Positions 7,736-25,633 of a DNA stretch of 64,000 nt are shown one piece after another. Source of the DNA: Granulicella sibirica (GTDB taxonomy: Bacteria > Acidobacteriota > Terriglobia > Terriglobales > Acidobacteriaceae); contig NZ_RDSM01000007.1 of the NCBI RefSeq assembly GCF_004115155.1, forward strand, positions 124,001 to 188,000, read 5' to 3'. Numbering within the stretch: the first letter of the stretch is position 1; every line of letters starts with the position of its first letter. The notes beneath the pieces were generated by a model. The model was given only the letters and a program-made list of their open reading frames with translations. It was not told where the DNA came from and ran no database searches. The position numbers and the translations under genes are program-made.

Positions 7736-10700
7736 ATGCCGCTTTTACCTGTTGAAGCGCGCACATCCAGGAGCGCGTCTGTGAATTCCCCAAGACTCTT
7801 GTCATCGCAAAGCCCTCGGGACCTCGAGGCTATTGTCCTCGAGCACTACACATGGCTGCTTGACTGGGCGCATCAGCTAACCCGTGGTACCTCAGAAGAA
7901 GCCGAAGATTTGGTGCAGGACCTGTGTGTCCGCCTCGTGCGGATGAAGAACAAGCCGGATCTTCCGGACGCTGACCAGGCTCGCGCTTATCTCTATAAGG
8001 CACTTAGAAACCTCTTCCTCTCAAAACGGTTACGGCATGGCCATGACGCCGTAGCTGGTCTCCTAGTGGTCGATTTCGATTCCGTAGCGTGGGCTATGTC
8101 CGCGGTAGATCGCAGCAAATTACTGTACGTACGCAGCGATCTCGCCCGCATCTGTGAATACGCCTGCATACGGCGCAAGTCGAGTCGTGCAGCCGCGGCC
8201 TTAATTCTTCGGTTCTTTATTGGCTACCTGCCTACGGAGACAATGGCCATTCTCAAGTCGAAGCGCGCCGGAGTTGACACTCTGACGCAGACGGCGCGGC
8301 TTGAGGCAAAGGCCTACCTGGAACGGCCGAGCGTGCTTCGGTTTCTCGACCGCAGCGACAAGAAGCCACAAGCCTCGTCGAAGAATCTTCCCGAACAATC
8401 CGATGCACTTTTTGCGGAATTGCTCCACAGGATCTTCGCAGAACCGGAAGGTCAGTGCTTCCCCGCCGGCTTTCTCAATGACCGCTACGGAACGTCAATA
8501 GAGATTCCCTTCGGCACCGACGAGATCGCTCACTTGGTCAGCTGCCACGCTTGTCTTCACTTGGCTACCGAGATACTGGCCTTACCCGACCTGACACTGC
8601 AGTTCCTTCCCGACATTCCCTCGTCGGGAGAGGCCGGACCACCACCAGCCAGATCTGAAAAAACTGATCTGAAAAAACTCCGTCGTAAGCTTCGCGAAAC
8701 CTACGAGCACAGACCATCGAAGCTGCAGATCATCGTCGATGGAGTCGTGCGAGGAGTGCAGACGATAGCAGGGGCTTCCAGTAAGGTTCAGATTGCACTC
8801 CAGCCTCTGTCAAAGCCTGGTTTTGTCGAAATCCTCAGTGAGCAGGGATTGGGGCTGCTTTATCTCGATCTCCAACCGGATGAACCCGGGCTTCCAAACA
8901 CCCAACACGCCGAGGTCGAGCTGAGCGACGGGCGGCAACTCTCCGTTTCGCTCACCTGGAGCGAGGGAGCGCCGGTGGTCCATGTCTCTTACTACGATCC
9001 ATTGTTCGAATCGGAGGGCGACGGGCCTCCCTCGGGAGCTGCGGAAGCGACACAGAGACGGACAGCAGGTTCGGCCGTAAGTCAAACCTCCCCACTTGAG
9101 GGAACGAGTTCACCTAACTGGATCGATCACATACGGACTCGGATTCGCGATTGGTGGAGGACGGCTGGCATCTTCGCTCTTGTCGCGTGCTTCGTGCTCC
9201 TAGCCGTGATCGGGCTTCGGCATCAGTCACGAAGCAAACTACAAACACCCAGTGCTCTCACCCTTCTCTCCCGGTCAGAAGAAAAGCTGAAGGTCTCTAC
9301 CCCAGTGCACGGCGCCGTCCGAAGCAAGTTCAGTTTGGATGTCACCCGCCGCGATAGTCGTACAACGAACCACCTTGAGGTCGAGGCATTGCGCAGCTCT
9401 GATCTACCGCTGCGGGTTGTCAGGCTCCGTGCGGCGAACGGCACTTTGGTGGCCGCGCAGGAGGTCGATGCTCGAGGAAAAGAGACTAACTTTTCCGGTT
9501 ACGGCACTCGGCCCATGCCAGAGACACAGTTGGAGACCGTATCGACAGACGGGGTTTGGCGCTGCCCGCCGGACGCCAAGAGTTTCAAGGATCTGGTGGC
9601 TGGCGCAAGCGACGTCTATGTGAATGAGGTGAAGGGTGGTTACGAAGTAGGGTTCAGACGATCCCCTATACTCAACCAGCCGACCATCGTCGAGGCGACG
9701 CTTCAGATCGAATCGGAGTCCATGCGACCCGTTGTTGAAACTCTGGAACTCCAACAAGGCGATGCCAAACGGGAGTATCGATTCAGGGAAGTAGGCTACG
9801 AGATTCTTCCCGCTTCCAGCGTTCACGACGGCGATTTCAGGCTGACTTCCATCTCTGAGGGTAAGCGCGCCGCGGCTACGGGAGGTGCTATCGCCAGAAC
9901 TGATACCGCGCAACTCATCCTCGAAGTTCTCGAAGTCCTGAGTAAACAGCAACAACAGGTTCAGGACAGCGTGGATGTGGAAAGGGGACAGAACAACGAG
10001 GTGGTGGTTAGCGGTGTGTTGCAATCATCTGCACAAAAGCAGATTTTCATCGAGAAGCTAGGATCGTCGCCCGGGTTCAATGCACTCACGATCGAATTGC
10101 ACTCCCCAGATGGCCCCGGAGCATACGGCTCCTCTACGGCAAGGACGTTGACGGTCGACACTCAGGTATCGATTGAGGACGGCCACCTTCCGTGGGAAGG
10201 TTTGCTGCGAGATCCGTTGCAGGCGCAGGGTTTCGAAGGACCTGAATTGGACGCTCGTATCCGAGCCTCGGCGGCGGCACTGATTGAGGCAGGCGCAGCA
10301 CTTCACCGCGAAGCCTGGGTTGCCGACCAGATCGCCACAAAGGATTTCACCTCGGACGAGTTGCAGGCAATGCACCCAGAAAAGCGTGCACGATGGCTCG
10401 CGTTGCTCAAGCTGCACCTCGATGCGTGCGCCAAACACGCGAACTTGATTGAGAACACAATAGCTATCCCACTTCGCTCACACGACGCTACCGGCGCCAG
10501 TCCCGCCGCTTCGCCGTTCAGTACGGTTGTCGAGTTCAGAGGCGGATTCACCTCTCTCGTTCGAGCCTCCAAAAAACTCGACTCCTCACTCGCATCAGGT
10601 TTTGCGCTCTCGCCAGAATCGCAACCGCCTTCTATCACCCCCGCAGAGCTGGAAGAGCTCATCACTAACCTCCAAGCCGAGGAGAGCTGGCTCGAAGCCA

Positions 10701-10747
10701 CTATCGACCGCCTCCACGAAACCCCTTCGCAGCGCCACAAGACGTAG
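7736..10747 (+). CDS. ECF sigma factor fused to ZAS anti-sigma motif, membrane segment and sensor region
   Basis: Residues about 31-100 form sigma region 2 (HYTWLLDWAHQLTR, EEAEDLVQDLCVRLVRM, ARAYLYKALRNLFLSKRL) and about 140-195 a region 4-like helical part. Residues 266-273 carry H-x3-C-x2-C (HLVSCHAC), the zinc motif of ZAS anti-sigma factors. A beta-rich part follows, then one membrane helix at about 478-495, then about 500 residues predicted outside the cytoplasm. FecI and FecR-like functions are thus in one 1003-residue chain. It lies 44 bases ahead of the TonB-type receptor gene and probably controls it and the isopeptidase gene. How the sigma part is released is unknown; proteolysis is one possibility. 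Confidence 0.75.
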   Translation: MPLLPVEARTSRSASVNSPRLLSSQSPRDLEAIVLEHYTWLLDWAHQLTRGTSEEAEDLVQDLCVRLVRMKNKPDLPDADQARAYLYKALRNLFLSKRLRHGHDAVAGLLVVDFDSVAWAMSAVDRSKLLYVRSDLARICEYACIRRKSSRAAAALILRFFIGYLPTETMAILKSKRAGVDTLTQTARLEAKAYLERPSVLRFLDRSDKKPQASSKNLPEQSDALFAELLHRIFAEPEGQCFPAGFLNDRYGTSIEIPFGTDEIAHLVSCHACLHLATEILALPDLTLQFLPDIPSSGEAGPPPARSEKTDLKKLRRKLRETYEHRPSKLQIIVDGVVRGVQTIAGASSKVQIALQPLSKPGFVEILSEQGLGLLYLDLQPDEPGLPNTQHAEVELSDGRQLSVSLTWSEGAPVVHVSYYDPLFESEGDGPPSGAAEATQRRTAGSAVSQTSPLEGTSSPNWIDHIRTRIRDWWRTAGIFALVACFVLLAVIGLRHQSRSKLQTPSALTLLSRSEEKLKVSTPVHGAVRSKFSLDVTRRDSRTTNHLEVEALRSSDLPLRVVRLRAANGTLVAAQEVDARGKETNFSGYGTRPMPETQLETVSTDGVWRCPPDAKSFKDLVAGASDVYVNEVKGGYEVGFRRSPILNQPTIVEATLQIESESMRPVVETLELQQGDAKREYRFREVGYEILPASSVHDGDFRLTSISEGKRAAATGGAIARTDTAQLILEVLEVLSKQQQQVQDSVDVERGQNNEVVVSGVLQSSAQKQIFIEKLGSSPGFNALTIELHSPDGPGAYGSSTARTLTVDTQVSIEDGHLPWEGLLRDPLQAQGFEGPELDARIRASAAALIEAGAALHREAWVADQIATKDFTSDELQAMHPEKRARWLALLKLHLDACAKHANLIENTIAIPLRSHDATGASPAASPFSTVVEFRGGFTSLVRASKKLDSSLASGFALSPESQPPSITPAELEELITNLQAEESWLEATIDRLHETPSQRHKT

Positions 10748-10791: not shown

Positions 10792-13700
10792 ATGCGACCG
10801 AATGTATTGCTTTGTCGAAATTCCGCTTCCTGGATCATGATTGTGCTCCTCTTCCTTTTCCTTCAACCCAACGCAGTCGCGGACGGTACCTCCGCAAGCG
10901 TCTCGATCACTGTCGTTGATCTGTCAGGAGCATTCATCCCGGACGCTTCGATGGTGATTCGCAATACGGACACCAATCAGGAGCAGCGTGCGAACAGTGG
11001 CAAAGCCGGCTCGGGTCATTTTACGTATCTAAAACCTGGCCACTACAAGCTAATAATTTCGAAGCCTGGCTTTGCTGATCTGGCGGTGGACAACATTCTG
11101 CTGAATATCGGCGACGAGAAGTTATTGGAGCTTGTATTGAAGGTCGGCTCCGCCAATCAGACGGTGACGGTCGATGGCAGCGGCTTGACGATCAATACCA
11201 CTGATGCCTCAGTCAGCACAGTAATCGATGGAACATCTGTGGCGAATATGCCACTTAATGGCCGAAGCTTTCAGGATCTCATCTCTATGACACCGGGCGT
11301 TGTGACGCAAAGCCCCCAAACTGGTTCAGGCAAGCTATCAAACGGGGATTTTTCGATCAATGGACAGAGGACGGAGTCAAATTATTACACAGTAGATGGA
11401 GTGGCGGCTAATACTTCTGCGGGTCCGGGCGGAGGCACGGCAAGCGCCGCCACTGGCGGCTCTGTAGCAAGTTCTACAGCGCTTGGGACGACTCAAAGTT
11501 TGGTATCGGTTGATGCATTGCAAGAGTTTCGCGTGGCATCGTCAACATACTCGGCGGAGTATGGACGTGCGCCCGGCGGTCAGATTTCATTCTTAACACG
11601 GTCGGGAACCAACAGCCTTCATGGAACGGCCTACGACTACTTGCGGAACAATTACTTCGACGCCAACGATTGGTTTAACGACCACGTCAGCAAGCCTATC
11701 ACCGCTCTTCGCCAAAATGACTTCGGTGGAACTCTCGGCGGCCCCATCCAGGTGCCAACACTTTATAGCGGGATTAACAAGAGCTTCTTCTTCTTCTCGT
11801 ATGAAGGCCTCCGGCTACTCCAACCACAGGCAACCACGGTCAAGTATGTCCCGGACTCATATTTACGTCAGAATTCTGTGGCGGCTATGCAGCCGATTCT
11901 TAACACTTTTCCGGTCCAGAATGGAAATGAAGAGCTAGTAGCTTGCACTCAAGGTGCGACGAGCAACTATCCGTGTCCACTTGGTGTCCCAACCGGAACG
12001 AGGATCCAAAGCGGCTTGGCCGACTTCATCCAGTCTTACTCGCTTCCGAGCGATATAAATTCCACTAGTGTTCGAATCGACCACACATTTCTCCATAACA
12101 CTACGGTGTTTTTTCGTTTTGCGAATACGCCGAGCAATAGCGATACTCGCATGTTGTCCTCGCTAGGCACAACGGCGGCCATGAATCGAAGCTATACGGC
12201 AGGCGCAAATGCTCAAATGACAGATCATCTGAGCAACGAGACTCGTTATGGGTACACCACATCCCTTGTCCGCTCATCTTATTCGCTCGACACTTTTGGA
12301 GGCGCAGCTCCAGTTGATCTTCCCGGGACGATAGCTCACGGTTTGACCAGCCCCTCGTTCGTTGTGCCACTCATTACGTTTCCGGGCGTCGGATCTTCAT
12401 ATATCGAAGCTGGCGGTACCTCGAATTCTCAGACTCAGTGGAACCTTGTAAACGCCATAAGCTGGACAAGCGCTAACCATGTCCTTAAGTTCGGAGTTGA
12501 TTACCGGCATATACGATCGCCGCTTTACTCTCCTCTCATTGAGTCATATCTCGAAAAGCCGTCAGATGTATTGACAGGTATACCTTCGCTCAATTACGTG
12601 ATCGCGTCTGTACAGGCGACGCCCATCTTTCAAGAGTTCGCGGCGTACGGGCAAGATAGCTGGAGAGTCATCCCATCGTTGACGTTGTCACTCGGACTGC
12701 GCTGGGAGGTGAATCCTGCACCCACGGGTGCAAATGGCAAGGACGCTTACACAATCTCCGGCAGCTTGGCTGTTCCTTCTAGCCTCTCGATTGCTCCACG
12801 AGGCACTCCCTTGTGGAACACAACATGGTTCAATTTTGCGCCCCGATTCGGTGCAGCGTGGCAGGCCCACTCTATTCCCGGCTGGGAGACCGTCTTCCGT
12901 GGCGGTGGCGGTGTCTTCTTTGATACAGACAATCAAGAGGGCGCGGCAGGATTCAGCGGGTACGGCTTTTCGGCCACGGGAATTTACTCGGGTACAACTC
13001 TTCCGCTCACGGCTTCCCAAGTGAACATCAGTCCATCCTCTAATCCGCCATACTCGAGTGTGTACATGTTTCCCACGCACTTACAACTACCTTATTCATT
13101 TCAGTGGAATGCGAGCATCGAGCAAGCACTTGGGAAAAGTCAATCTGTCACCATGTCCTATGTGGGGGCGAATGGCCGCCGTCAGCTTGGCCAGGAAGAT
13201 TTACCTGCACCAAACAGTAATTTCTCCACCATAGGCGAATACATTGGAGGCCTCAGTTCTAGCTATAACGCGCTACAAATTAAATTTCAGCGCTCAGTGA
13301 GACATGGGATTCAGGTTCTAGGTTCATATACATGGGCCCATTCGATCGACGAGGCCTCCACATATATCTCCTTTCTTCCAGTGCGGCGGGGCAGTTCAGA
13401 TTTTGATGTTCGGAACAACTTTTCGGCGGGAGCTGGTTGGGATCTTCCTGTTGCAGGAGAAAATGCCCTGTTGAGAGTTGTCACGAACGGTTGGGCCGTT
13501 GACGGACGTTTCGTGGGACGTACCGGATTCCCTGTCTCTCTCCAAGGGAGCTTCATTACTGACCCCATCACAGGCACACTCAACTATGGTGGAGTGAATC
13601 TCATACCGAACCAGCCCATATATCTATATGGAGATCAGTACCCTGGTGGACGCGCGGTAAACAAGGCGACGTTCAGTGCGCCGGCTGGTGTCACCGTAGG

Positions 13701-13980
13701 CGACGCTCCCCGCAATTTGGTACGTGGCTTCGGAGAGACCCAATTCAACCTAGCGGCGCGGCGCGAGATCGCCATGCGTGAGGCGGTGAAGCTCCAGTTT
13801 CGCGCCGAAGTATTCAATCTCTTTAACCACCCCAACTTCGGCTATGTAGACCCGATACTAGCTGACGCCACTTTTGGGCAAGCGACCAAGATGTTGGATC
13901 AAAGCCTCGGCACGGTGGCTCCGCAATATCAACAGGGTGGGCCTCGATCCATGCAATTCGCTCTGAAGTTGCAGTTCTAA
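10792..13980 (+). CDS. Oar-like TonB-dependent outer-membrane receptor
   Basis: A 1062-residue protein with a signal peptide (hydrophobic residues 14-28), a carboxypeptidase-regulatory-like beta-sandwich (residues about 35-120, VVDLSGAFIPDASMVIRN), a plug domain (NMPLNGRSFQDLISMTPGVV) and a beta-barrel ending in the outer-membrane signature QFALKLQF. It belongs to the large Oar-like receptor family of Acidobacteria. Its place between a sigma/anti-sigma protein and an isopeptidase-like enzyme parallels the receptor-isopeptidase pairs of proteobacterial lasso loci, so uptake of the lasso peptide is the best guess; other ligands are possible. Confidence 0.8.
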   Translation: MRPNVLLCRNSASWIMIVLLFLFLQPNAVADGTSASVSITVVDLSGAFIPDASMVIRNTDTNQEQRANSGKAGSGHFTYLKPGHYKLIISKPGFADLAVDNILLNIGDEKLLELVLKVGSANQTVTVDGSGLTINTTDASVSTVIDGTSVANMPLNGRSFQDLISMTPGVVTQSPQTGSGKLSNGDFSINGQRTESNYYTVDGVAANTSAGPGGGTASAATGGSVASSTALGTTQSLVSVDALQEFRVASSTYSAEYGRAPGGQISFLTRSGTNSLHGTAYDYLRNNYFDANDWFNDHVSKPITALRQNDFGGTLGGPIQVPTLYSGINKSFFFFSYEGLRLLQPQATTVKYVPDSYLRQNSVAAMQPILNTFPVQNGNEELVACTQGATSNYPCPLGVPTGTRIQSGLADFIQSYSLPSDINSTSVRIDHTFLHNTTVFFRFANTPSNSDTRMLSSLGTTAAMNRSYTAGANAQMTDHLSNETRYGYTTSLVRSSYSLDTFGGAAPVDLPGTIAHGLTSPSFVVPLITFPGVGSSYIEAGGTSNSQTQWNLVNAISWTSANHVLKFGVDYRHIRSPLYSPLIESYLEKPSDVLTGIPSLNYVIASVQATPIFQEFAAYGQDSWRVIPSLTLSLGLRWEVNPAPTGANGKDAYTISGSLAVPSSLSIAPRGTPLWNTTWFNFAPRFGAAWQAHSIPGWETVFRGGGGVFFDTDNQEGAAGFSGYGFSATGIYSGTTLPLTASQVNISPSSNPPYSSVYMFPTHLQLPYSFQWNASIEQALGKSQSVTMSYVGANGRRQLGQEDLPAPNSNFSTIGEYIGGLSSSYNALQIKFQRSVRHGIQVLGSYTWAHSIDEASTYISFLPVRRGSSDFDVRNNFSAGAGWDLPVAGENALLRVVTNGWAVDGRFVGRTGFPVSLQGSFITDPITGTLNYGGVNLIPNQPIYLYGDQYPGGRAVNKATFSAPAGVTVGDAPRNLVRGFGETQFNLAARREIAMREAVKLQFRAEVFNLFNHPNFGYVDPILADATFGQATKMLDQSLGTVAPQYQQGGPRSMQFALKLQF

Positions 13981-14025: not shown

Positions 14026-16200
14026 ATGAATGTCCGCTTTTACCATGCCATTGTATGGTTAGGAAAGACAGCAGCAGTAATGATCGTCGTCGCGATAAGT
14101 TGTTCCAGTGGCGCGCAGACAGGAAAGAAAAGGGCGATTACGGTAGATGACGCCATCCGGATGACGCGATTGGCCGATCCGCTGTATTTTGGAGGCGCCC
14201 CACCTGGAAGTTATTCCGTGGCGCAATTCTCTCCAGACAAGATGAAGTTTGTGATTGTCTTGCGGACGGCGGATACAAGGACAAATACCAACATCTACAA
14301 GATGTATCTGTTTTCTGTAAACGATGTGTTTGACCAGGCCAGACCGAACGTCGTTTGCCAGATGTCATCTTCATCAAATACACCGGCAATATCCGAAGTT
14401 AGATGGCTTAACGACAATCGCCGGTTAGTCTTCCTTGGGGCAAGAGCGCTAGAACCATCCCAAGTGTACATAATCGACACTAGTAGCCGCCGAGTTCTGC
14501 AACGAACTCATCATCAGTCGGCGATTGATTCGTTCGATATCTCTGCCGATGGGCGGGTGGTGGCTTTTTCTGCGGAGCCTATATTGAGAGATGGAAGGTC
14601 CAAGACAGATGATGAGTTGATTGTAAACGGACATAGTTTGATTGATGTATTGACCGATCAGTGGCAGACAGAGGAACATGGGCGGGATCTCTTTATCCAG
14701 ACCGGAGATGGCGAGCAGCGTTACCAGATTCCACCTGGCTATCTCATACCGGACCCACATGGCACTGGAATATGGATGTCACCGAATGGAACATACGCCG
14801 CGGTAGCGCTGACATTCCGTCGAGCGAATCTGTCATGGGCTCAGTACGATGATAAGGCTTTGCGGTTGTGGGGAAGTAGAGCAATCAACCATGATTTGCG
14901 TGATGGTGTGGGAGAGAAGGAGATATTCATTCTCGATACGAAGCAGCATGAGCTGACCTCAGCAGTAGGTGCACCAGCATCATTCGCTCCCGAGATAAAA
15001 TGGTCACCCGACGGATGGACAATTTACATGAAGACGTTTTTGCCCCCGTCTCAATCGAAAATATCTGAGCCGGTGGAGGTTAACCTGCGAGACCGCCATG
15101 CCCATCGATTAACCAATGCTGAGTGGAGTGCGGCTGTTTCGAATCCGGCCGAGCCCAGCGTGACAGTTGATCTGGAAGAGGACCCCAATTCGCCGCCGCG
15201 TATCTTTGTGGCTTCGAGGATCGATAACCGCAGAGCATTGCTCATAGATCTCAACCCTCAATTCCGTGATCTTGAATTTGGGGAGGTCAGGACTCTGACG
15301 CTTTCGATTCATGGTGTAAAAGTGGTTATGGGGCTATATTTACCTCCTGACTACCGGGCAGGAAAGCGTTATCCTCTCGTGATTCAAACCCACGGCTTCG
15401 ACCGCGATCGTTTTTCGATGGACGGCATGGACGAATGGAGCACGGGTTTTGCTGCTCGCCCGCTTGCAGCCAATGGGTTTATAGTCCTTCAAACATTAAG
15501 TCTCGCTACGCCTGAAGATGCTGCCAAATATCAAATAGAGCGGAGCTTAGGGCGAATCCCAGGGGAGCGTGCGCGGGAGATGGAGAAAGAAGCCTATGAG
15601 GCCGGAATCGATACGCTCGACGCTCAGGGCTTCATTGATCGGAAGCGCGTAGGGATTAGCGGGTTCAGTATAAGCGTGATGTTTACAGCTTTCACTCTAA
15701 CGCATAGTAACTATCCTTTCGCCGCGGCGGCGCTTGCAGACGGAGTCGATGAAGGCTATTTCCTGTATGTCGCAGATGAAGAACGCATTTTTGATGAGTA
15801 TAACGATGGGAGTCCATTTACCATCGATGGCCTCAGTCATTGGCTCAAAGATTCTCCAAGCTTCAGTTTCGACAAGGTACACACACCAGTCCGGCTAGTC
15901 GCTCGCGACAGAACATCATCTGTCCTGGAGATGTGGGAGTGGTACGCCGCCTTGGATATGCAAGATAAGCCTGTTGATTTCATTAGCCTGCGAGGCGCTG
16001 CTCACACGATGGAAAGGCCATCCGACCGATGTATTGCCATGGACGGCCTCGTGGATTGGTTTTCATTTTGGCTGCAAGATTATGAAGATCCATCTCCGAA
16101 TAAGCGTGAGCAGTATTTGCGATGGAAGAAGTTGCGACGATTACAACATGCTTCAGAGCCAATGGTCGAGCCGCAGAAATCCCGTCAAAATGAACCATAG
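14026..16200 (+). CDS. S9-family lasso peptide isopeptidase-like hydrolase
   Basis: A 724-residue protein with a signal sequence (residues about 14-31), a beta-propeller N-terminal half starting with the AITVDDAIRM segment and FSPDK motif, and a C-terminal alpha/beta hydrolase. The likely nucleophile is Ser548 in GISGFSIS, with His660 in RGAAHTMERP and Asp628 or Glu635 as the acid. This order and length match AtxE-type isopeptidases, which cut the macrolactam bond of lasso peptides. The nucleophile elbow (GFSIS) differs from the usual GxSxG. It follows the receptor gene by 45 bases. A general dipeptidyl peptidase is the alternative; context favours isopeptidase. Confidence 0.75.
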   Translation: MNVRFYHAIVWLGKTAAVMIVVAISCSSGAQTGKKRAITVDDAIRMTRLADPLYFGGAPPGSYSVAQFSPDKMKFVIVLRTADTRTNTNIYKMYLFSVNDVFDQARPNVVCQMSSSSNTPAISEVRWLNDNRRLVFLGARALEPSQVYIIDTSSRRVLQRTHHQSAIDSFDISADGRVVAFSAEPILRDGRSKTDDELIVNGHSLIDVLTDQWQTEEHGRDLFIQTGDGEQRYQIPPGYLIPDPHGTGIWMSPNGTYAAVALTFRRANLSWAQYDDKALRLWGSRAINHDLRDGVGEKEIFILDTKQHELTSAVGAPASFAPEIKWSPDGWTIYMKTFLPPSQSKISEPVEVNLRDRHAHRLTNAEWSAAVSNPAEPSVTVDLEEDPNSPPRIFVASRIDNRRALLIDLNPQFRDLEFGEVRTLTLSIHGVKVVMGLYLPPDYRAGKRYPLVIQTHGFDRDRFSMDGMDEWSTGFAARPLAANGFIVLQTLSLATPEDAAKYQIERSLGRIPGERAREMEKEAYEAGIDTLDAQGFIDRKRVGISGFSISVMFTAFTLTHSNYPFAAAALADGVDEGYFLYVADEERIFDEYNDGSPFTIDGLSHWLKDSPSFSFDKVHTPVRLVARDRTSSVLEMWEWYAALDMQDKPVDFISLRGAAHTMERPSDRCIAMDGLVDWFSFWLQDYEDPSPNKREQYLRWKKLRRLQHASEPMVEPQKSRQNEP

Positions 16201-16218: not shown

Positions 16219-16368
16219 GTATTCGTCTACTTCGTGTACTGCTGGGGTAACTAAGCTCACAGTAGCCAGGAGCAACCTCGCAATATAGGTTTCCGCATTT
16301 ACCATTGGTCCCTAAGCGGTTGTTTGAGCATTCGATGTAGCAATGATGCGCGGCTCGACATATATCAT
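16219..16368 (-). pseudogene. Decayed second lasso precursor gene
   Basis: The ATG at 16368 opens with MIYVEPRIIATSNAQTTA and stops at codon 19 (TAG). Codon 20 onward aligns with the intact precursor after one missing base: GTNGKCGNLYCE. A compensating extra base restores the original frame, which ends TPAVHEVDE exactly at codon 49, as in the intact gene (TPAAYEADE). The natural stop (TAG in the intact gene) is TAC. The reconstructed 27-residue core starts GKCGNLYCE with Gly1 and Glu9 in ring positions and three cysteines (3, 8, 15). Nonsense, two frameshifts and stop loss show it is dead. It lies downstream of the operon terminator. Confidence 0.75.
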
Positions 16369-16755: not shown

Positions 16756-18636
16756 TTAGGCTGCCGCGATTATCGGACCAGAAGCGTTGTCAATGCTGCG
16801 AAGCCACAACTCCAAGGCGATGGCTCGCGTAAGCGAGCGGAAATTGCAGGTATCTGCGCCCTTCAGCAGTGTTTCAAGTGCAAGGTTCAGGTTCGGTAAA
16901 TTGACGAGACCAAGACCTGCGATGCGTGGCGCACGGAAGAGATTCCTGATAGGAGCTTCGGCATGTTGGAGTGATGACAATGGCCCTCGCAGCAAATATG
17001 CCTTGCGGGGTCGTTCCAGCACTTCAGAAGGGACGATCCCCTTCAATGCCCTGCGCATCAACAACCGCCGACGCCCTGGTTGAATGATCTGTGTGCGCGG
17101 AATCCTGAATAAAAAGTCTACAAGGTCCTTGTCCAAGTAGGGATAGCGGTACTCGCAGGACGGCAGAAGGGTGAAGGATAGATGGGGAAGCGTGTCCAGA
17201 ATTGTCCACCATGTGGCACCGTTACAGATCGCACTGGGCCGCAGTCCTAAAGAACGTGTATCGGAGATGTTCGTTCCCTGGTTTAATAACGAAGTTAGCT
17301 GTGAAGGATTTAACCAGGGAGGTGCGGTCGTCTCCGCCATACGATCTCCGCGGTAGGTTTCATAAGTAAATGCAATAGTCTCGGCGATCAAACGGATGAG
17401 TGGCTTGCGTGTTGGAAGGCTCCATGCAAATGATCGTTGACACAGGGCTCGGAGGTCTCCGCACATGAGCAGATCGGAGAGTTCCGGGAGAGCGTTTGGA
17501 ACACCGCCCAATACCTCATCCCCACCGATGCCCGACAGGACCACCCGATACCCATTAGCCTCGGTTAGCTGATAAAGGTCACGTTCCGCTTCAATCGTGT
17601 AGCTGTCCTGGCCGGGCAAGCGATAAATGCCCGAGGTACCCTCATGAGGTTTGTACGTGTGCTTCAAGAAGGACGCCGGCACATGATGACCGACCTTCCC
17701 GCGTTGGCGTTCTACGAGCATAAAATATGGCTTCTCGTCCCAGGTTGGTTCGGAGTCATCATAAAAAGAGATCGTATCGAGGAGATCTTCCGGACAAACA
17801 CCCTGTTCACGCCGGATGGCGTCCGACACGCAAACAATGGCCGTAGAGTCCACCCCGCCACTCAGTTGGGCTATGACAGGTGCGCCTGGGATCGTTCGCC
17901 GCTTGATAGACTGCTTGAACAGCGAGAGGAAGTGTTCGTCGTACTCGACGTCGCTGCGATAGGAAATCTGCTCCCGCACCATCCAGGTCCAATGCGGCTG
18001 GCATAGGAGATTGTCATCCCTAAACCTTAGATAATGGGCTGGTGGGACAGACCTAATTCCACGATAGGGAGTTAAGTTTCCGGTGGGCAGGCACGCGAGA
18101 TAGCCTGCTGCGTAGGTTTCATCCAGCGTGCGTGATGGGGTGTCGGCGAAGAATGTTTCCAAGTGGCTGGTCCACAACAGTGTGTCTTTCGTGATCTCGT
18201 AATAGAGCGTGCGCGAACCCGCGTGATCTCGGGCAAGATACAGCGCTCGATCATTGTGACACCAGAGCGCCAAAGCCCAATCGCCGGTGAGACGCGCGAA
18301 ACAAGACTCTCCCCAACGGGCGAATGCGGCAAGCACGATGACGGAATCGGACGCCTGGGGAACCGCTATATTCAACAGAGAGCAGAGCTCTTTATGGTTA
18401 TCTAGTCGTCCATCGAAGCCCAGCATATTGCCGGTATCGTTGTCGCTAGATGGGCCACACTCGAGCCGTGACCTCTCGTGAGTGTGGTATGGCTGAAAGC
18501 CCATTCCCACCCTGCCCCGGCTATGCACCGACGTTCCATCCAGCGCGTAGCGGTCCGTAGTATGGCCTAGGTGCAGGAGATCTTGTTCAGTGACGAGATC
18601 TTCTTCCGACTTGCGAACTCCGAATATAATGCTCAT
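16756..18636 (-). CDS. Lasso peptide macrolactam synthetase (asparagine synthetase-like, C protein)
   Basis: A 626-residue asparagine-synthetase B homologue. The N-terminal Ntn-like domain (residues 1-200) lacks the catalytic Cys2 glutaminase residue, as in lasso cyclases. The synthetase domain has the pyrophosphatase loop SGGVDS at residues 259-264 and GIGGDEVLGG downstream. In lasso pathways this enzyme adenylates the ring Asp/Glu side chain and joins it to the core N-terminus. It lies 9 bases after the B2 gene and directly before the precursor. Authentic asparagine synthetase is unlikely given the missing Cys2 and the neighbours. Confidence 0.9.
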   Translation of the reverse strand: MSIIFGVRKSEEDLVTEQDLLHLGHTTDRYALDGTSVHSRGRVGMGFQPYHTHERSRLECGPSSDNDTGNMLGFDGRLDNHKELCSLLNIAVPQASDSVIVLAAFARWGESCFARLTGDWALALWCHNDRALYLARDHAGSRTLYYEITKDTLLWTSHLETFFADTPSRTLDETYAAGYLACLPTGNLTPYRGIRSVPPAHYLRFRDDNLLCQPHWTWMVREQISYRSDVEYDEHFLSLFKQSIKRRTIPGAPVIAQLSGGVDSTAIVCVSDAIRREQGVCPEDLLDTISFYDDSEPTWDEKPYFMLVERQRGKVGHHVPASFLKHTYKPHEGTSGIYRLPGQDSYTIEAERDLYQLTEANGYRVVLSGIGGDEVLGGVPNALPELSDLLMCGDLRALCQRSFAWSLPTRKPLIRLIAETIAFTYETYRGDRMAETTAPPWLNPSQLTSLLNQGTNISDTRSLGLRPSAICNGATWWTILDTLPHLSFTLLPSCEYRYPYLDKDLVDFLFRIPRTQIIQPGRRRLLMRRALKGIVPSEVLERPRKAYLLRGPLSSLQHAEAPIRNLFRAPRIAGLGLVNLPNLNLALETLLKGADTCNFRSLTRAIALELWLRSIDNASGPIIAAA

Positions 18637-18645: not shown

Positions 18646-19023
18646 TCAGCAGCGTTCTAGTACCTGGTAGATGTCCAGCATGTAGGGCCTGTCATTAACC
18701 ACCGTTCCATTAATCTCCACCCACGCGTGGGACCGTAAGGGCCGTATCTGTGCCCCGATTACCATCTCCGCCCGCCATCCGTGACGGCGCAGCAGCAATG
18801 TGGTTGCCGAAGAGCGCTGAAGGCATAGGACCTGCTTGAAATAGAGGACACATGCGTAATCCATTGCTCTACAGAGGACATCACTAGAAGGTCCTTCCGC
18901 CATCTCCTTGGGCTCTACTATGCACGCATGCACGATGCGATGGAGCGTTTTGATCGCCCGGAAGCGCATAACGAATTCAAAGAACAATAGAAGCAGCCAG
19001 CTTTCCAGCACGTAGCGTTTCAT
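18646..19023 (-). CDS. Lasso peptide leader peptidase (transglutaminase-like, B2 protein)
   Basis: A 125-residue transglutaminase-like protein with Cys67 in VLCLQRSSATTLLLRRHG, His99 in SHAWVEING and an Asp near the end (Asp117 in LDIYQVLER), the Cys-His-Asp triad of B2 proteases that remove the leader. The length fits a stand-alone B2 without a fused B1 domain; B1 is separate at 22392. The N-terminal 20 residues are hydrophobic. The start overlaps the prolyl oligopeptidase stop by 4 bases, indicating translational coupling. Confidence 0.88.
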   Translation of the reverse strand: MKRYVLESWLLLLFFEFVMRFRAIKTLHRIVHACIVEPKEMAEGPSSDVLCRAMDYACVLYFKQVLCLQRSSATTLLLRRHGWRAEMVIGAQIRPLRSHAWVEINGTVVNDRPYMLDIYQVLERC

Positions 19024-21041
19024 GCGGTCTCCCGTTTCAAAAGTGTGATGTTCAGCTGCTTTGCGAGAAAGGCCATTCTGCGAACAAGTGCGTCGATGCG
19101 GACAGAAAGCGGAAGGACCGGGGTATGTCCGCGCTCTTCACCATAGTCCACGATGACTGCCGAACGCTGGGCGTCACGATACTGGAGACGAGCAGCCATT
19201 TTTCGCACGTGAGCTGGATTACAGCGATCATCCTTATCACCCGAGACGAACATTACGGGAGGATAGTCGACATCCTCCTGGACGCGGTGGTAGGGAGAAT
19301 AGGCGTAAAGCGCATGGAAGTCGTCCGCATCCTGTACCGTTCCATATTCGCGTCGCCACCTAGCCGCGCCGTTGAACGATTCATATCGAACCATATCGAG
19401 CAACGGAGCAATGCAGAGAACGGCTCCGAAGAGATCCGGACGTTGAGTTAGCGCAGCACCAACGAGTAATCCAGAGTTCGATCCACCAAAGATAGCAAGC
19501 CTGCCGGGTGTCGTGATGTCCCGGTCGCACAGAAACTCGGCGGCCGCGAGAAAGTCGTCGAAAGCCTTCTGGCGATTACGTGCACGGGCTGAGTCATGCC
19601 ACTGCACGCCGAATTCACTTCCGCCACGGATATGCGGTAGCGCAAAGATAGCGCCAAACTCCATCATGATGGTGGCTAAGATGGAAAAGTGGGGGGTGAC
19701 TGAGATACCAAATCCGCCATAACTAGTCATGATGACTGGAGCAGGGCCGTGCAGGCTTACACCGTCGGACGCCACGAGCGTGAGTGGGATCTCGGTTTCG
19801 TCCCTTGACAGATAGGAGACGCGCCCTATGTGGTAAGAAACCCGTTCGGTAAGGGTCGTGGATGGATGCCACACCGTGGAGCTATCCGTAAGGGCGGAAT
19901 ATTCGAAGATCTCAGGAGGACGGCTAAAAGATTCGTAGGTATAGAAGAAATCGTCCGCGTCCTGATAAGGGGTCTCATAAATCTGTATGGTGCCATCGTT
20001 CGGAAGATTTAGTCTTCCGAGAAATTGCCCTCTGAAATCCCATGCAAATACCTCCTCTATTCCGTCATCAACATATCCGGCGTAGATGCGAGTGTGGGCT
20101 ATGGCAAACTGCCGGAGAGGTAACGAACGCGCGGGAATCAATTCCCGCAGTTCGCGACCATCCTCGGCTAGCTCTATCACTCTGGTGTTGCCATATTGAT
20201 TCTGGGTCGAAACAAAGATTCTTCCGCTGCAGAGTAGAGGATGGAATGGATGCGGCTTGCCAGAGAAAACTGTTCTCCATGCCAGTGTGTGCGTTGCTGA
20301 TGAAATGGTGAAATCAATAAGTTTCTCTGTGTTGGCGTGCTGATGAATCCAGATCGCACCCAGACGTGACTCGTCCGCCACAAGTACCAGACGGCTCCCT
20401 GGAGAACGTGGGACTTCAAGGAGAACTTCCTCCGCGGTAGCTTCTCCGAATCGATGTAGCCGAATCGAGTGGTTTCTGCCCTCACCGGTGTCGTGACAAT
20501 AGTAGAAGCCATCGTTTGTGGGGGTAAATGCGAATCCGCGGGGATAGCCACTTTCCAGTTGGTCAGGGAGGATAGTGGTTGTCTCGATGTCGAGGATATG
20601 AATCGAGCACCGGTCCTCGCCTCCATGCCTGAGCTCATACGCAAGCATTTTACCGTCTTGTGAAACACGGTGGATACGGACGGAGGCGAACGGATCATAC
20701 TTTGACGGATCGATCAGTCGTCGTTCCTCACCGGTTCTTCCGTATCGCACGCAAATCGACTTCTGTTCTTCTCCTTTTTCATGCCTGAGGTAGAAGTAGC
20801 GATCCTTGATTCGCAAAGGCTGTTCGATGGTATCCACATCGAGATATGAGCGGACCCGCTCCCGCAACGCGTCGAGTCCGGGGACGCGTTCGAAATACTC
20901 TGTGCAGAGCTTCTGCTGCTTCAGGATCCAAGCCTCTGTCTCAGGGAGGCGTCGATCTTCGAGCCAGCGATAAGGGTCGGAAACGGTAACGCCGTGAAGG
21001 ACCTCTTCGACACCAGGCATGGAAAGCTTGCTTACCGGCAT
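19020..21041 (-). CDS. Prolyl oligopeptidase (S9A) in the lasso operon
   Basis: A 673-residue cytoplasmic-type prolyl oligopeptidase without signal peptide. It starts with PGVEEVLHGVTVSDPYRWLE, continues through a beta-propeller, and has the hydrolase domain with RGGSEFG, Ser521 in GGSNSGLLV (usually GGSNGG), an Asp in SGDKDDRCNP and His639 in ERGHTP. The family cleaves short peptides after proline. Inside a lasso operon it may degrade leader fragments or process the peptide; the precursor core has one proline (STPAAY). It overlaps the B2 gene by 4 and the kinase gene by 10 bases. It is distinct from the exported isopeptidase-like protein at 14026. Confidence 0.88.
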   Translation of the reverse strand: MPVSKLSMPGVEEVLHGVTVSDPYRWLEDRRLPETEAWILKQQKLCTEYFERVPGLDALRERVRSYLDVDTIEQPLRIKDRYFYLRHEKGEEQKSICVRYGRTGEERRLIDPSKYDPFASVRIHRVSQDGKMLAYELRHGGEDRCSIHILDIETTTILPDQLESGYPRGFAFTPTNDGFYYCHDTGEGRNHSIRLHRFGEATAEEVLLEVPRSPGSRLVLVADESRLGAIWIHQHANTEKLIDFTISSATHTLAWRTVFSGKPHPFHPLLCSGRIFVSTQNQYGNTRVIELAEDGRELRELIPARSLPLRQFAIAHTRIYAGYVDDGIEEVFAWDFRGQFLGRLNLPNDGTIQIYETPYQDADDFFYTYESFSRPPEIFEYSALTDSSTVWHPSTTLTERVSYHIGRVSYLSRDETEIPLTLVASDGVSLHGPAPVIMTSYGGFGISVTPHFSILATIMMEFGAIFALPHIRGGSEFGVQWHDSARARNRQKAFDDFLAAAEFLCDRDITTPGRLAIFGGSNSGLLVGAALTQRPDLFGAVLCIAPLLDMVRYESFNGAARWRREYGTVQDADDFHALYAYSPYHRVQEDVDYPPVMFVSGDKDDRCNPAHVRKMAARLQYRDAQRSAVIVDYGEERGHTPVLPLSVRIDALVRRMAFLAKQLNITLLKRETA

Positions 21042-22417
21042 AGCGCACCCAGGAACTCCGGACTCTGTGCTGCGCGATCCATGTGGCGTGCGAGGCAGCG
21101 TGCATAAGCCTCAAAGGGGGGCGTCTTACTCCTCTCGGACCCGAACCAATCGCCCCTTCCATGCAGGCAGGAATAGACGGAGAGAAGAGGAATCAGAGAG
21201 CAAGCCCGCGCGATTTGAGAGCCGTTAAGTAGCTTGCTCCACATATCGCAATAGGCCTCACTGAGCTGTTTTCTCCAGAACTCCCCTTCATGATTTGGTG
21301 CGCGTTTTTCAGCAATCACGAGAAAGAGTTGAAGAGATAGAAACGGGTTACCAACGTAGGCTTCGGCCCAATCTGTGAAGCGACACCGACAGCCGTCCAA
21401 AAGAATATTTCCTGGATTGAGGTCGTTATGGATGAGAGTATCGGGAATCTCCAATGCCTCCAGCCTATCGAACGCATCCCGAAGGATGATTCCTAGTTGT
21501 CGGAGTCTGTGCTCTTCGAGCCGCGGCGCACGTGTAGAGGTCTGACGTGGCATGACCGCCATTAGGTAGTTCATCACCTGATCGACTCGGGATCGAAGCA
21601 CTGGTACGCAATGGTCGAGGGCTCCAGCCCTGGTGAGCATGTCGGTACAGTTGAGAGTCTCCATTTGCAGTTCCGCGAGAGAGCGTACCGCTGTCTTGAA
21701 GTTTGACAAAGTAGGTACGTCATCCAGCGGGTAACCCGCTTCCTGTGTTATCCACGCATTCCACTCGGTGCGCACGCCGAGCAGCGGTGGAAGAAACGAT
21801 GGGGAGATCTGTGCTAAACAAACAGTGATGTATAGCTCATGGATGTTCGGTGTGCCCGTGGCTTTCAACCAATATGCTGGACCAGCATGCATCGGAAAAC
21901 GGACCAGCGCGAAGCTGCCGCTCGCATTAAGCTGTCTGACATTTTCGTCAAAATAAGTCGCCTGATCGGTTACACATTGACGAATCCAGTCCTGCACATC
22001 CTCAAGCCATCCGATCCGTGAAAATGGCCCACGTCCAATGTTGCGGCCATTGAGTAGAGAACGAATTACCTCTCGCTCCGTGAGCTTCAATGCTTGGCCG
22101 TTGATTTCGTCAAGGTCTACTGCCGCTAGACTCGCTGAATAGGAGAGGAGCGAATTCCTGACCTCAACTACAGCACAAGGGGTATCAGGACAATCTTCAT
22201 CTACTACATCAAGGAGTATTGCTCCTAAACCCCAATTCTCTTGAATGCTTCGAGTCAATTGTTGGGCTACACGTTCCCACCGTGAGATAGATATTTGAGG
22301 TAGCACGAAGACTCCATCGATCGAAGCGACTAGTAGGGCACGCGGTCGAGGCAATATCAAAGCTAAACGATAGGTTAGGAAATCCGGCATGTTACAACCT
22401 CGAACTGCGGTTTCCAT
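21032..22417 (-). CDS. APH-fold kinase with Nudix-like N-terminus, lasso operon
   Basis: A 461-residue protein. Residues 1-120 (ALLVASIDGVFVLPQISISR, then WERVAQQLTRSIQENWGL) resemble a Nudix-like fold without an evident catalytic box. The C-terminal half is an aminoglycoside-phosphotransferase/choline-kinase domain with H330-x-D332-x4-N337 (IHNDLNPGNILLDG) and Asp349 in TDWAEAYVGNP, so catalytic and magnesium residues are present. It overlaps B1 by 26 bases and the oligopeptidase gene by 10, firmly within the operon. Phosphorylation of the lasso precursor or product is plausible, but known lasso kinases belong to another (HPr-kinase-like) family. A close paralogue lies at 34687. Confidence 0.75.
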   Translation of the reverse strand: METAVRGCNMPDFLTYRLALILPRPRALLVASIDGVFVLPQISISRWERVAQQLTRSIQENWGLGAILLDVVDEDCPDTPCAVVEVRNSLLSYSASLAAVDLDEINGQALKLTEREVIRSLLNGRNIGRGPFSRIGWLEDVQDWIRQCVTDQATYFDENVRQLNASGSFALVRFPMHAGPAYWLKATGTPNIHELYITVCLAQISPSFLPPLLGVRTEWNAWITQEAGYPLDDVPTLSNFKTAVRSLAELQMETLNCTDMLTRAGALDHCVPVLRSRVDQVMNYLMAVMPRQTSTRAPRLEEHRLRQLGIILRDAFDRLEALEIPDTLIHNDLNPGNILLDGCRCRFTDWAEAYVGNPFLSLQLFLVIAEKRAPNHEGEFWRKQLSEAYCDMWSKLLNGSQIARACSLIPLLSVYSCLHGRGDWFGSERSKTPPFEAYARCLARHMDRAAQSPEFLGALCR

Positions 22418-22676
22418 CCGGTGGTGAGACGATGAGATGTCTTATCATCAATTGCTCCATAAATTCAGCAACGTCAGCGGCAACTTCATGTGGATCTGAT
22501 CCCGTATCTCGAGCTAACTCGTTCACAATCGCATCCACTAGCTGGCCTTTTTCCAATCGCGTCCACACATATGCACCAGTCATATTCAATGCGATAAAGG
22601 TGTCGCGAAGAATATCGAAAACAACAGCTCCATCTGGATCTGAAATTGATTTGAGGTTGGGAGCCACGGCTACCAT
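22392..22676 (-). CDS. PqqD-like RiPP recognition element (lasso B1 protein)
   Basis: A 94-residue PqqD-family protein: DPDGAVVFDILRDTFIALN forms the beta part and MTGAYVWTRLEKGQLVDAIV the first helix, then a helical bundle. B1 proteins bind the YxxP leader motif and present the precursor to B2 and C. GGAG lies ten bases before the ATG at 22676. It is the first gene of the minus-strand operon, behind a leader of about 210 bases with a palindromic element. Confidence 0.85.
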   Translation of the reverse strand: MVAVAPNLKSISDPDGAVVFDILRDTFIALNMTGAYVWTRLEKGQLVDAIVNELARDTGSDPHEVAADVAEFMEQLMIRHLIVSPPDGNRSSRL

Positions 22677-22912: not shown

Positions 22913-22963
22913 TGAAAGGCCTTCGTAAGCCTCGCTATGGATCAGCGCTACAGTGGCTAGAAG

Positions 22964-23443
22964 CTAGATCGGCTCTCGCACGCCGGAAGCCAGACGCTCC
23001 TGCTTCTTGGTCTTCTCACGCTCGCGGCGGCCCCAAGCCGACGGTGTTTCATGCATGTGCTTGTGGAAGAACCGCGCGAAATCCCGCACCTCATCGTAGC
23101 CGAGCAGGTTGGCAATCACACTCAACTTGGTCGGTGGAATCATACTGAGAAGCGAGTGTGCGAGACCGAGGCGTGCATCGATTTGGCATTGGAGCATTGT
23201 CTTCCCGATCTCTACATTGAACGCCCGCTCCAATGTTCGCATCTCCACACCCAGTTCATTCGCGATCGGAGCCATACGCAATTTCACGTGGCCGTGAAAG
23301 GTAAGGATGATGTTGTGCATCGCGCGAGCGGGATTCTGCAGGACCGAAGACAGATCCTCTTCAGGCGAAAACCTGAGAGCGCGAATGCGCGCAATCGCTT
23401 GCTTCTCTATTGGGGAGAGTTCTTCTGGTACGCGGTTCGACAC
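22964..23443 (-). CDS. AraC-family transcriptional regulator, short form
   Basis: A 159-residue protein whose residues about 50-140 form the double helix-turn-helix of AraC proteins: MRTLERAFNVEIG, then LSVIANLLGYDEVRDFARFF and HKHMHETPSAWGRRER. The N-terminal ligand domain is reduced to about 50 residues. The start is a GTG at 23443, with a stop just upstream in frame and no strong ribosome site. It is oriented like and immediately precedes the lasso operon, so it is a candidate regulator; it could also be a truncated leftover. Confidence 0.7.
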   Translation of the reverse strand: MSNRVPEELSPIEKQAIARIRALRFSPEEDLSSVLQNPARAMHNIILTFHGHVKLRMAPIANELGVEMRTLERAFNVEIGKTMLQCQIDARLGLAHSLLSMIPPTKLSVIANLLGYDEVRDFARFFHKHMHETPSAWGRREREKTKKQERLASGVREPI

Positions 23444-23854: not shown

Positions 23855-25633
23855 ATGTTAGGAAGTCAACCAACCAAAACGGTCCTCAACCCCGCCGAAA
23901 CAACTGTCGGGGATTCTCAATGGCTCCTTGGCTGGTTGCGCCCACATGCAACACTAGTGGGCTTTGGGCTAGTCACGGCGATCTTCGCCGGCGCAATTGC
24001 AACGCTCGATCCACTCCTGATGAAATATTTGATCGATACGACATTGCCACATAGGAGGCTTTCCGATTCGCTCCTGACAGTCGTGTCCCTGGCTCTATGC
24101 TTTGTCGGGCGGTCTGCCCTGAATGGAGGAAGCGGACTCGTCAGTTTTCGGGTCGCGCAGCTGCTCGCGCAGGATCTTCGCGTGGAGATCATCGCACATA
24201 TGACACGCTTGTCCGCCGACTGGCATGAACGGACCATGGTAGGAGAAAAGCTGAGTCGGATCGATCAGGATGTGCTCCAGATTTCGCAGATCGGAGCTGA
24301 GATGGCTAATGTTGTCGTTCGGAGCGTCGTCTTCTTTTTCGTAAATTTGGCCATCATGTTCGTACTTAACTGGAAAATGACGATCGTGACGCTTCCTCTC
24401 CCGCCGCTATTCATCTGGGTTCGCTCAAGATTCCGCGGAGTGATTCAAGAGCGAGCGGACCAGGCCCAGATCGAGATAGGGGTCGCGTCTGGTGCTCTCG
24501 TAGAGCACCTAGGGGCCGTGCCGCAGATCCAGTTGCTTGGCGCCGAGGAGGATCGGATTGGACGGACTGTCGACGCGTGGGCTCGCGTGATGAGGGCGCA
24601 ATGGGCTCAGCGACGAACGGAGATTCTGTTCAGTATCTCCGTAACGAGTGTGCTAGCCATCGCCATTCTTCTGGTCCTCGGTTTCGGAATACACGAATAC
24701 TCTCTTGACCTCCTAACATTAGGCGGCCTCGTGGCGTTCTACACCTATGTCACCCGCATCTTCGAGCCGGTATCTACAGCTCTGGAACTTTACTCGAGGG
24801 CGCAGCGCATGCTGGCCAGCGTTCGGCGCGTGCGAACTATCCTTTCTACTGAGCCAACAGTGCCTGACCAGGGCAAAATTACAGAGATCAGGCTGCCGCT
24901 ATCGACAGGCGTGCATTGCGACTTGGTGTCCTTTGCGTATAGATCGAATGAAAATGTGTTGCACCGGGTCTCACTGCAAATCGGAGATCGCGAAAACGTG
25001 GCCATTGTCGGCCGGAGCGGCTCCGGAAAATCAACCCTCTCAAAGCTGCTCGCCCGCATCGTGGATCCAACGGCCGGAGCGGTTCTGATTGATGGTCGTC
25101 CAGCATTTGAATATTCGTTGCGCGCTCTCCGTCAGACAATCTGCTATGTGCCACAACATCCAGTCCTGTTTTCGGGAACGATTAGAGATAACTTGCTGAT
25201 GGCCAATCGAAATGCCACGGACAGCATGCTCCAACGGGTGATCGACATTGCTCAGTTGAGCTCCGTCCTGTTTCGTTTACCGAGGGGCCTGGACACGATC
25301 GTTGGCCCTGAGGCCGTCGGGCTTTCCGGAGGAGAACGTCAAAGGCTTGCGATTGCAAGAGCGCTGTTGCGAAACTCATCGATCCTCATACTGGACGAAT
25401 CCACATCAGCGCTTGATCTTCCCACGGAACAAGCTCTCCTACAGGCGGTCGCTGATTACTGCAAAGATACGGCGCTGGTGTTGATCTCCCATCGCTTGCG
25501 TTCCTTGACCTGGGTAGATCGTGTCATCCTTCTCGAAGGCGGCCATGTACTGGCGGAGGGGACTCACACTTTGCTTTACAAGGGCTCTAAGCTCTATCAG
25601 GCTCTATACGACAACGAGACTGAAGACGGGTAG
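23855..25633 (+). CDS. ABC transporter, fused permease-ATPase (lasso exporter, D protein)
   Basis: A 592-residue half-transporter. The membrane domain at residues about 25-320 has six predicted helices. The nucleotide-binding domain has Walker A GRSGSGKST at 386-394, the signature LSGGERQRLAIARALL at 490-505, Walker B SILILDEST and the switch His in LISHRLRS. No N-terminal peptidase C39 domain is present, as expected for lasso exporters (McjD-like), where B2 already removes the leader. It is divergent from the biosynthetic operon. A duplicate of its C-terminal tail survives at 27942. Confidence 0.88.
   Translation: MLGSQPTKTVLNPAETTVGDSQWLLGWLRPHATLVGFGLVTAIFAGAIATLDPLLMKYLIDTTLPHRRLSDSLLTVVSLALCFVGRSALNGGSGLVSFRVAQLLAQDLRVEIIAHMTRLSADWHERTMVGEKLSRIDQDVLQISQIGAEMANVVVRSVVFFFVNLAIMFVLNWKMTIVTLPLPPLFIWVRSRFRGVIQERADQAQIEIGVASGALVEHLGAVPQIQLLGAEEDRIGRTVDAWARVMRAQWAQRRTEILFSISVTSVLAIAILLVLGFGIHEYSLDLLTLGGLVAFYTYVTRIFEPVSTALELYSRAQRMLASVRRVRTILSTEPTVPDQGKITEIRLPLSTGVHCDLVSFAYRSNENVLHRVSLQIGDRENVAIVGRSGSGKSTLSKLLARIVDPTAGAVLIDGRPAFEYSLRALRQTICYVPQHPVLFSGTIRDNLLMANRNATDSMLQRVIDIAQLSSVLFRLPRGLDTIVGPEAVGLSGGERQRLAIARALLRNSSILILDESTSALDLPTEQALLQAVADYCKDTALVLISHRLRSLTWVDRVILLEGGHVLAEGTHTLLYKGSKLYQALYDNETEDG

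Follow-up and report, generated by a model that had tools for sequence, protein, structure and literature searches.

In the accessible part of a 2026 review, lasso rings are closed once the leader is removed, the N-terminus of the peptide forming the bond (PMC13352647). As excerpted, a rubrinodin cluster combines an ATP-binding cassette (ABC) exporter with an isopeptidase, a TonB receptor and a FecI/FecR-like pair (PMC9266682), and in an acidobacterial soil cluster the gene that separates B1 from B2, C, A1 and A2 bears the label Kinase and is listed as an 'aminoglycoside phosphotransferase family protein' (PMC9064862). Leaders with Ile or Val at position -2 from the cut site are described in Acidobacteriaceae, TAA 166 included, in the available portion of a further paper (PMC10368454). 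Here we analyse a locus at positions 7736..25633 of the window, a 64,000-nucleotide stretch of Granulicella sibirica (NZ_RDSM01000007.1, 124,001..188,000). Judged by its sequence, this is a real lasso-type locus for a ribosomally synthesized and post-translationally modified peptide (RiPP), and it belongs to a conserved Acidobacteriaceae subclass. The new point is the precursor, in which an internal lysine probably closes the ring; a lysine-closed ring would be new for the lasso class. Related loci are labelled L and genomes G, each followed by a number.

On the minus strand the genes run in the order B1, a kinase of the aminoglycoside phosphotransferase (APH) type, a prolyl oligopeptidase (POP), B2, cyclase (C) and precursor. 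An isopeptidase-like S9 protein, an Oar-type TonB receptor and a sigma-domain protein are convergent to them, and an ABC exporter diverges (Table 1). All of these genes have open frames at or near the positions given in an initial annotation of the window, and its assignments hold, both for the B1, B2, C, precursor and exporter genes with the convergent receptor and isopeptidase-like gene and for the kinase and POP. A B1 and a transglutaminase-like B2 above its cut-off, which together mark lasso biosynthesis, are both present. The same annotation had likened the locus to proteobacterial lasso loci in joining synthesis, uptake and degradation, and by the gene assignments this logic holds.

So far as the excerpted sources describe them, the astexin, sphingopyxin, benenodin and rubrinodin clusters share with this locus the lasso enzymes, isopeptidase, TonB receptor and sigma regulators, and rubrinodin shares the ABC transporter too. 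The window locus differs from these isopeptidase-containing clusters in its kinase and POP within the operon, its CarboxypepD_reg receptor, a sigma domain on a 1003-residue protein, its convergent layout, its conserved C-terminal tail and its predicted lysine-spaced ring. The Ile/Val(-2) leader, the YxxP motif and a kinase gene are features it has in common with the Bradymonas Bsf cluster and further Ile/Val(-2) clusters; however, the available portion of the paper describes BsfK as a relative of HPr kinases that targets Ser3 and reads BsfA as Gly1-Asp8, and the published BsfA core, translated by eye from the printed gene, is without lysine (PMC10368454). The soil biosynthetic gene cluster (BGC) 482.1 has the same order of B1, APH-family Kinase, B2, C, A1 and A2, but its precursors are read there with Leu or Ser at -2, and the words isopeptidase, TonB and oligopeptidase do not occur in the accessible text (PMC9064862). 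The initial annotation had called the combination undescribed, which was too broad, as much of it is in print in the portions available of three papers (PMC9266682, PMC9064862, PMC10368454); a lasso operon containing both a POP and a kinase was not found in the literature listings, 'Oar' not being among the terms searched. Among the titles and abstract starts listed in the literature search, none named a lysine-closed lasso ring or such a tail, the precursor alignments of PMC10368454, which may show the same peptides, lying outside its scope.

The precursor leader in the window, MQYHKPEITAVSNAKDTVQ, has the YxxP motif and Val(-2). Its predicted core, GTNGKVGMQFTDAINGQRQLSTPAAYEADE, has 30 residues, with Lys5, a putative acceptor at Asp12, and Thr22 and Tyr26 in the tail. 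The cut is derived from homologues and lies three residues before that of the initial annotation, whose 27-residue core is probably wrong. Less one water, the calculated monoisotopic mass is 3150.468 Da for the 30-residue core (3230.434 with one phosphate) and 2878.356 Da for the 27-residue one. For a comparison across loci, leaders were located by the YxxP pattern, so that most rows were chosen by their Tyr(-17), Pro(-14) and -12 residue, and the conservation of these three is no evidence. Of 78 leader-matched precursors, seven kinase-minus rows and three from L165/L166 were omitted; seven rows were added by hand (two from L055, one each from L088 and L111, three from L161), and the resulting 75 became 64 once cores at least 0.7 alike were removed. 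L143, which obeys the lysine rule given below, was missed by the leader pattern and is uncounted, and L163 (split cyclase, tail SGYVANA) was omitted. The Thr(-2) of classical lasso leaders is absent from the window precursor, and the non-redundant locus precursors have Ile or Val there in 63/64 (53 Ile, 10 Val; Leu, Thr and Met were also permitted), with Ala(-6) in 62 and Gln(-1) in 37. The residue after the predicted cut is Gly in 28 and Ser in 21 (49/64). In the available portion of its paper, BsfB2 is shown to cut an Ile(-2) leader at the corresponding site (PMC10368454).

With the predicted cut, core positions 7-9 of the window precursor hold Gly, Met and Gln, and no Asp or Glu. Across the locus set the regular feature is instead a spacing: a lysine with Asp or Glu at +6 or +7 occurs in 62/64 precursors (shuffle mean 10.4, maximum 23, 2000 shuffles), the exceptions being L044 (+8) and L084 (+5). 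The acceptor falls at 8-16 after the predicted cut, and an acid at 7-9 is found in 23/64, which is not above chance (shuffle 18.2, maximum 30). When precursors were picked by their tail only, with no leader pattern, the rule held in 57 of 58 non-redundant sequences, which overlap the locus set. The loci with such a Lys-type precursor are here called K1. A profile search of 5.8 billion proteins gave 176 hits, of which 120 were listed; two parsed poorly and were excluded, and 85 were new, of which 66 were non-redundant. This set is biased to K1-like peptides, as the leader parse favoured Ile/Val(-2) and 38 K1 precursors had served to build the profile (A2). Among the matches listed, all 66 further precursors obey the rule (shuffle mean 10.6, maximum 20), with lysine at 3-12 and the acceptor at 9-19, and 25 have an acid at 7-9 (shuffle 18.1, maximum 32). 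The decayed second precursor in the window likewise has, in its core frame, a lysine with Glu at +7. One locus, L088, encodes precursors of unequal arm length, with lysine at 3, 7 and 7, the Lys3 one having Ala(-2). By count of ring atoms, a Lys-Asp ring at +6/+7 would have 26/29, against 25/28 for classical Asp rings of 8/9 residues. Elsewhere in the phylum, loci without the kinase usually have the classical acid at 7-9 (L052, L058, L164, L167, L172, L174, L177, L180, L181, L184).

The initial annotation had staked its reading on a cyclase distinct from true asparagine synthetases and on a precursor conserved in related loci. The precursor is conserved, and the window cyclase scores 258 bits with NF033535 (cut-off 525) against 159 with the asparagine synthase model TIGR01536. 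Lysine-Asp/Glu side-chain linkages are found in graspetides such as the microviridins, made by ATP-grasp ligases; the linkage proposed here is similar, whereas the cyclase is asparagine-synthetase-like, and profile scans of the locus proteins found no ATP-grasp family. In a careful tree of 61 cyclases, the 28 K1 rows form one clade (100/100) among the other lasso-type cyclases fetched. A second group, K2 (eight rows), is likewise a clade (100/100), placed in the opposite half of the tree; classical rows occur in both halves. In a quick tree the K1 label required four changes, with L139, L076 and L143 unlabelled inside the clade. On the cyclase sequences, gains and losses of the Lys-type state appear indistinguishable.

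K2 comprises about six distinct precursors; L170, labelled K2, falls outside the eight-row clade. The K2 leaders read WxxP...T(-2), with Trp for the leader Tyr, and the cores have Lys8/Asp14 (L188-L193), Lys10/Asp16 (L194, L195) or Lys5/Asp11 (L196-L198); the K2 relative L199 is classical, with Asp9. Six K2 loci re-fetched with flanks have a cyclase and an ABC gene, plus B1 and B2 where the contig permits, and gave no match to kinase, isopeptidase, receptor or POP. The K2 group was met among cyclases related to that of L178, which (E <=1e-60) occur in 19/119 genomes of its order. A third group, K3 (L200, L202), has Ile/Val(-2). Its seven precursors share a DF[DE]E tail and pair Lys3 with Asp/Glu, which stands at 10 in six and at 11 in the seventh. 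L200, L202, L208 and L209 show a fused B1-B2, several precursors per locus, a neighbouring S9 gene and a convergent isopeptidase. A scan for alignment columns with a residue class that K1 and K2 have in common and that no more than 30% of the 13 classical cyclases show returned a single column, window residue 296, which aligns near AsnB 274: Glu in 28/28 K1, Asp in 8/8 K2 and an acid in 0/13 classical rows. Over all rows it is Glu in 63/63 K1 and Asp in 12/12 K2, one of these being the second cyclase of a K2 contig (L214). In an alignment of sequences, this acid is a lead, not proof.

The gene content around the precursor is conserved as well. B2 matches (E <=0.001) occur in 90/396 genomes of the phylum, 81 of them above the cut-off, and the kinase in 63/397 genomes of the order, 62 in the window's family and one outside (G452, a short weak match). 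Co-occurrence was counted over the 60 K1 loci of at least 12 kb, most of them fetched as stretches of about 20 kb, so that absences may be edge effects. A kinase homologue is present in 59, and the 60th (L161) has a kinase-POP fusion; within the fetched stretches there are 37 with POP, 55 with the isopeptidase, 57 with the receptor and 22 with the ABC exporter. The isopeptidase-like gene and the cyclase lie on opposite strands in 55/55 loci with both. The architecture of the precursor loci is not chance, because the kinase or its fusion occurs in 60/60 and the opposite orientation in 55/55. Besides kinase-POP, we found kinase-B2 (L084), POP-B2 (L083, L111) and B2-cyclase (L087) fusions; those involving kinase or POP tie both to maturation. 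None of 20 phylum-wide B2 loci gave a kinase match. The genome of the window holds a second locus of this type (L003, G000:C1:1703000-1722500) with B1, kinase, B2, cyclase, isopeptidase and receptor, without POP, whose precursor reads GPKIFTPHE...AAYQADE.

Nearly all K1 precursors end in an [ST]xxAYxADE-like tail. Aligned on the last Tyr (n=64), the tails have Asp at Y+3 in 61, Glu at Y+4 in 63 and Ala, Gly or Ser at Y-1 in 64; Ser or Thr stands at Y-4 in 53/64 (shuffle 13.0, maximum 26) and within -5 to -3 in 64/64. Among the database matches listed, the tail is present in 66/66 and the Ser/Thr in 55/66. The kinase model (mean predicted local distance difference test score, pLDDT, 92.8) has an APH fold, nearest by Foldseek to macrolide phosphotransferases, choline/ethanolamine kinases and the corramycin phosphotransferase, and its N-terminal alpha/beta domain looks Nudix-like. 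By sequence, solved structures gave only a weak match (hygromycin kinase, 8.7e-4). K176, E185, D323 and D340 (A1 numbering) are invariant in 35 sequences. The protein is of the APH family by Pfam and by model and not of the HPr-kinase type (PadeK, ThcoK, BsfK); as the known lasso kinases are HPr-kinase-like, it would be an analogue of these. Its likeliest target is the tail. Tyr is a possible phosphosite, though we prefer the Thr/Ser, as the tails of L165 and L166, loci with a kinase homologue, contain no Tyr. These two distant loci have classical G1-D8/9 rings and ALG[VL]D[DE] tails, and their state is possibly ancestral. The tail was also considered as a POP cleavage site and rejected, Pro at Y-2 showing no enrichment (9/41 with POP, 6/23 without).

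The lysine spacing in K1, the same spacing in most of the distant K2 and the acidic cyclase residue common to both point to a ring between lysine and Asp/Glu, and we propose a full pathway for the K1 locus on this basis, to which we give a probability of about 0.56. B1 would bind the YxxP leader, and the APH-fold kinase would phosphorylate the unprocessed precursor, most likely on the Thr/Ser at Y-4 of the tail. B2 would cleave after [IV](-2)-x(-1); the cyclase would then activate the Asp/Glu side chain and close the ring with the side-chain amine of the lysine 6-7 residues upstream, leaving a short N-terminal arm free. The ABC protein would export the product, the receptor would re-import it, the isopeptidase would open the ring and the sigma protein would adjust expression. 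A wider claim can be framed, a shade short of an even bet: that the nucleophile used by lasso-type cyclases has changed at least twice, whether from N-terminal amine to internal lysine or back, and that the products form a RiPP subclass in which the ring joins Lys to Asp/Glu, the N-terminal arm is free and the tail may or may not be threaded, joined in K1 by an APH-fold kinase reading a conserved C-terminal tag.

Several observations weigh against this pathway. Product, mass and structure are all predictions. An acid at 8-9 occurs in 23/66 of the listed database precursors, above all shuffles (mean 12.5, maximum 22), and the acceptor itself lies at 8-9 in 13/62 locus and 16/66 listed database precursors, where an ordinary ring fits too. 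The kinase-free classical loci L174 and L180/L026 have Lys2 and Asp8, compatible with both readings, K2 L196 also has Asp9, one K3 precursor has an acid at 8, and L186 and L049 obey neither the lysine rule nor that of an acid at 7-9. Arms are longer in POP-bearing loci, with the acceptor beyond 9 in 36/40 against 13/22 without POP (Fisher p 0.008), which makes N-terminal trimming conceivable. At residue 296, 13/50 'other' cyclases also have Asp or Glu; at least four of these are K1/K2 copies or clade members and the rest are mostly without a known precursor (a usable one was not found for L057, L056, L050, L204, L206 or L207, being absent or poorly parsed). The K3 cyclases have Ser there. Lastly, the link between tail and kinase comes from what is essentially a single clade, and an acidic tail is conserved in the K3 loci, where no kinase was found, so that the role of the tail may instead lie in export or uptake; for these reasons we dropped independent co-occurrence of kinase and tail as a strong argument.

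The main rival reading, which we consider unlikely, keeps an ordinary N-terminal lasso ring of 8 or 9 residues and adds trimming, by the leader cut or a second protease, one or two residues before the lysine, itself retained for cyclase or receptor binding, for example. Ring sizes would then be classical, the Gly1-Asp9 ring and 27-residue core of the initial annotation would be possible, and both the longer arms beside POP and the Lys2/Asp8 pairs of L174 and L180 would fit. However, the residue before the lysine would be unconserved (Ala, Gly, Asn, Ser, Pro, Asp, Ile and others) while the -2 site is strongly conserved, the acceptor still lies beyond 9 in 13/22 precursors of loci without POP, and Pro occurs in only 9/40 arms of POP-bearing loci. 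The K2 loci, with Thr(-2) and no POP match, have the same pattern. A quite improbable alternative is that relaxed cyclases make N-terminal macrolactams that vary in size, from about 8 to 19 residues: this makes a new nucleophile unnecessary but leaves the fixed spacing unexplained (62/64, and 66/66 among the matches listed), and in the accessible part of the review a one-residue change of ring size significantly lowers lasso production (PMC13352647). That the lysine and Asp/Glu are a recognition motif or salt bridge in a linear product is the least credible of the three, for although the product here is a prediction, 55/60 K1 loci carry an isopeptidase-like gene.

Table 1. Features of the locus, in window coordinates.
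Feature	Positions	Strand	Evidence
Extracytoplasmic function (ECF) sigma-domain protein, 1003 residues, long C-terminal part (putative sigma/anti-sigma fusion)	7736..10747	+	Sigma70_r2 8.8e-8
Oar-type TonB-dependent receptor	10792..13980	+	CarboxypepD_reg + OMP_b-brl_4, 1.1e-140
Lasso isopeptidase-like S9 protein	14026..16200	+	NF033523 186 bits (cut-off 400); AtxE2 5txc 1e-30
Decayed second precursor	16222..16368	-	Leader and a remnant of the tail (TPAVHEVDE) share a frame; the core lies in a different one
Precursor, 49 residues	16515..16664	-	Leader MQYHKPEITAVSNAKDTVQ, core GTNGKVGMQFTDAINGQRQLSTPAAYEADE, predicted
Lasso-type cyclase (C)	16756..18636	-	NF033535, tree, column test (Glu296)
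B2 leader peptidase	18646..19023	-	NF033537 71 bits, above cut-off 33
Prolyl oligopeptidase (POP)	19020..21041	-	Peptidase_S9_N + Peptidase_S9; prolyl endopeptidase 2bkl 4.7e-110
APH-fold kinase (KIN) with N-terminal alpha/beta domain	21032..22417	-	PF01636 (APH)
B1 (PqqD-like RiPP recognition element, RRE)	22392..22676	-	PF05402 1.2e-13
AraC-type helix-turn-helix (HTH) protein	22964..23443	-	HTH_18 1.8e-14
ABC exporter (D)	23855..25633	+	ABC_membrane + ABC_tran

The accessory genes were assigned as follows. 'Oar-type' is our reading of the domain pair in the receptor. In the sigma-domain protein, Sigma70_r2 is the sole family above its cut-off; homologues occur in L004, L005, L006 and L039, that of L005 with a weak match to sigma region 4 (0.041, below cut-off). 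Of the fused sigma/anti-sigma protein in the initial annotation, the sigma part stands; the other part gave no anti-sigma profile match, one hydrophobic stretch being visible in the sequence. In place of a separate ECF sigma and FecR-type anti-sigma pair, the locus thus has one protein with sigma region 2 only. AtxE2 is the best solved sequence relative of the isopeptidase-like protein, in which a Ser, an Asp and a His align within the AtxE2 catalytic region, at its putative triad positions. It has the AtxE2 similarity and the Ser-Asp/Glu-His residues of AtxE2-type isopeptidases, though its NF033523 score is below the cut-off. The AraC-type protein has homologues in 12/60 K1 loci.

Past the exporter, a fragment at 27810-28154 is 53% identical to part of it and is perhaps a remnant, and a PAS-domain protein (28621-30075) has homologues in 13/60 K1 loci. 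Positions 30596-36840 encode two proteases, one of the CHAT and one of the S41 type, together with a third kinase homologue (34687-36057) and, on the minus strand, an unknown protein (36076-36840). This set recurs beside lasso loci, such as L071, L135 and L157; in L079 and L080 it occurs with no B2 or cyclase match within the fetched stretch.

If the ring is indeed closed by lysine, a cyclase acting on an internal lysine would uncouple ring closure from removal of the leader, and would be an enzyme with which rings between internal side chains could be tied. Genome prediction of such peptides would change, since a search for Asp or Glu at 7-9 would miss 41/64 locus precursors. For the K1 loci of the Acidobacteriaceae, the conserved tail and the kinase together would provide a tag or phosphosite that is directly testable.

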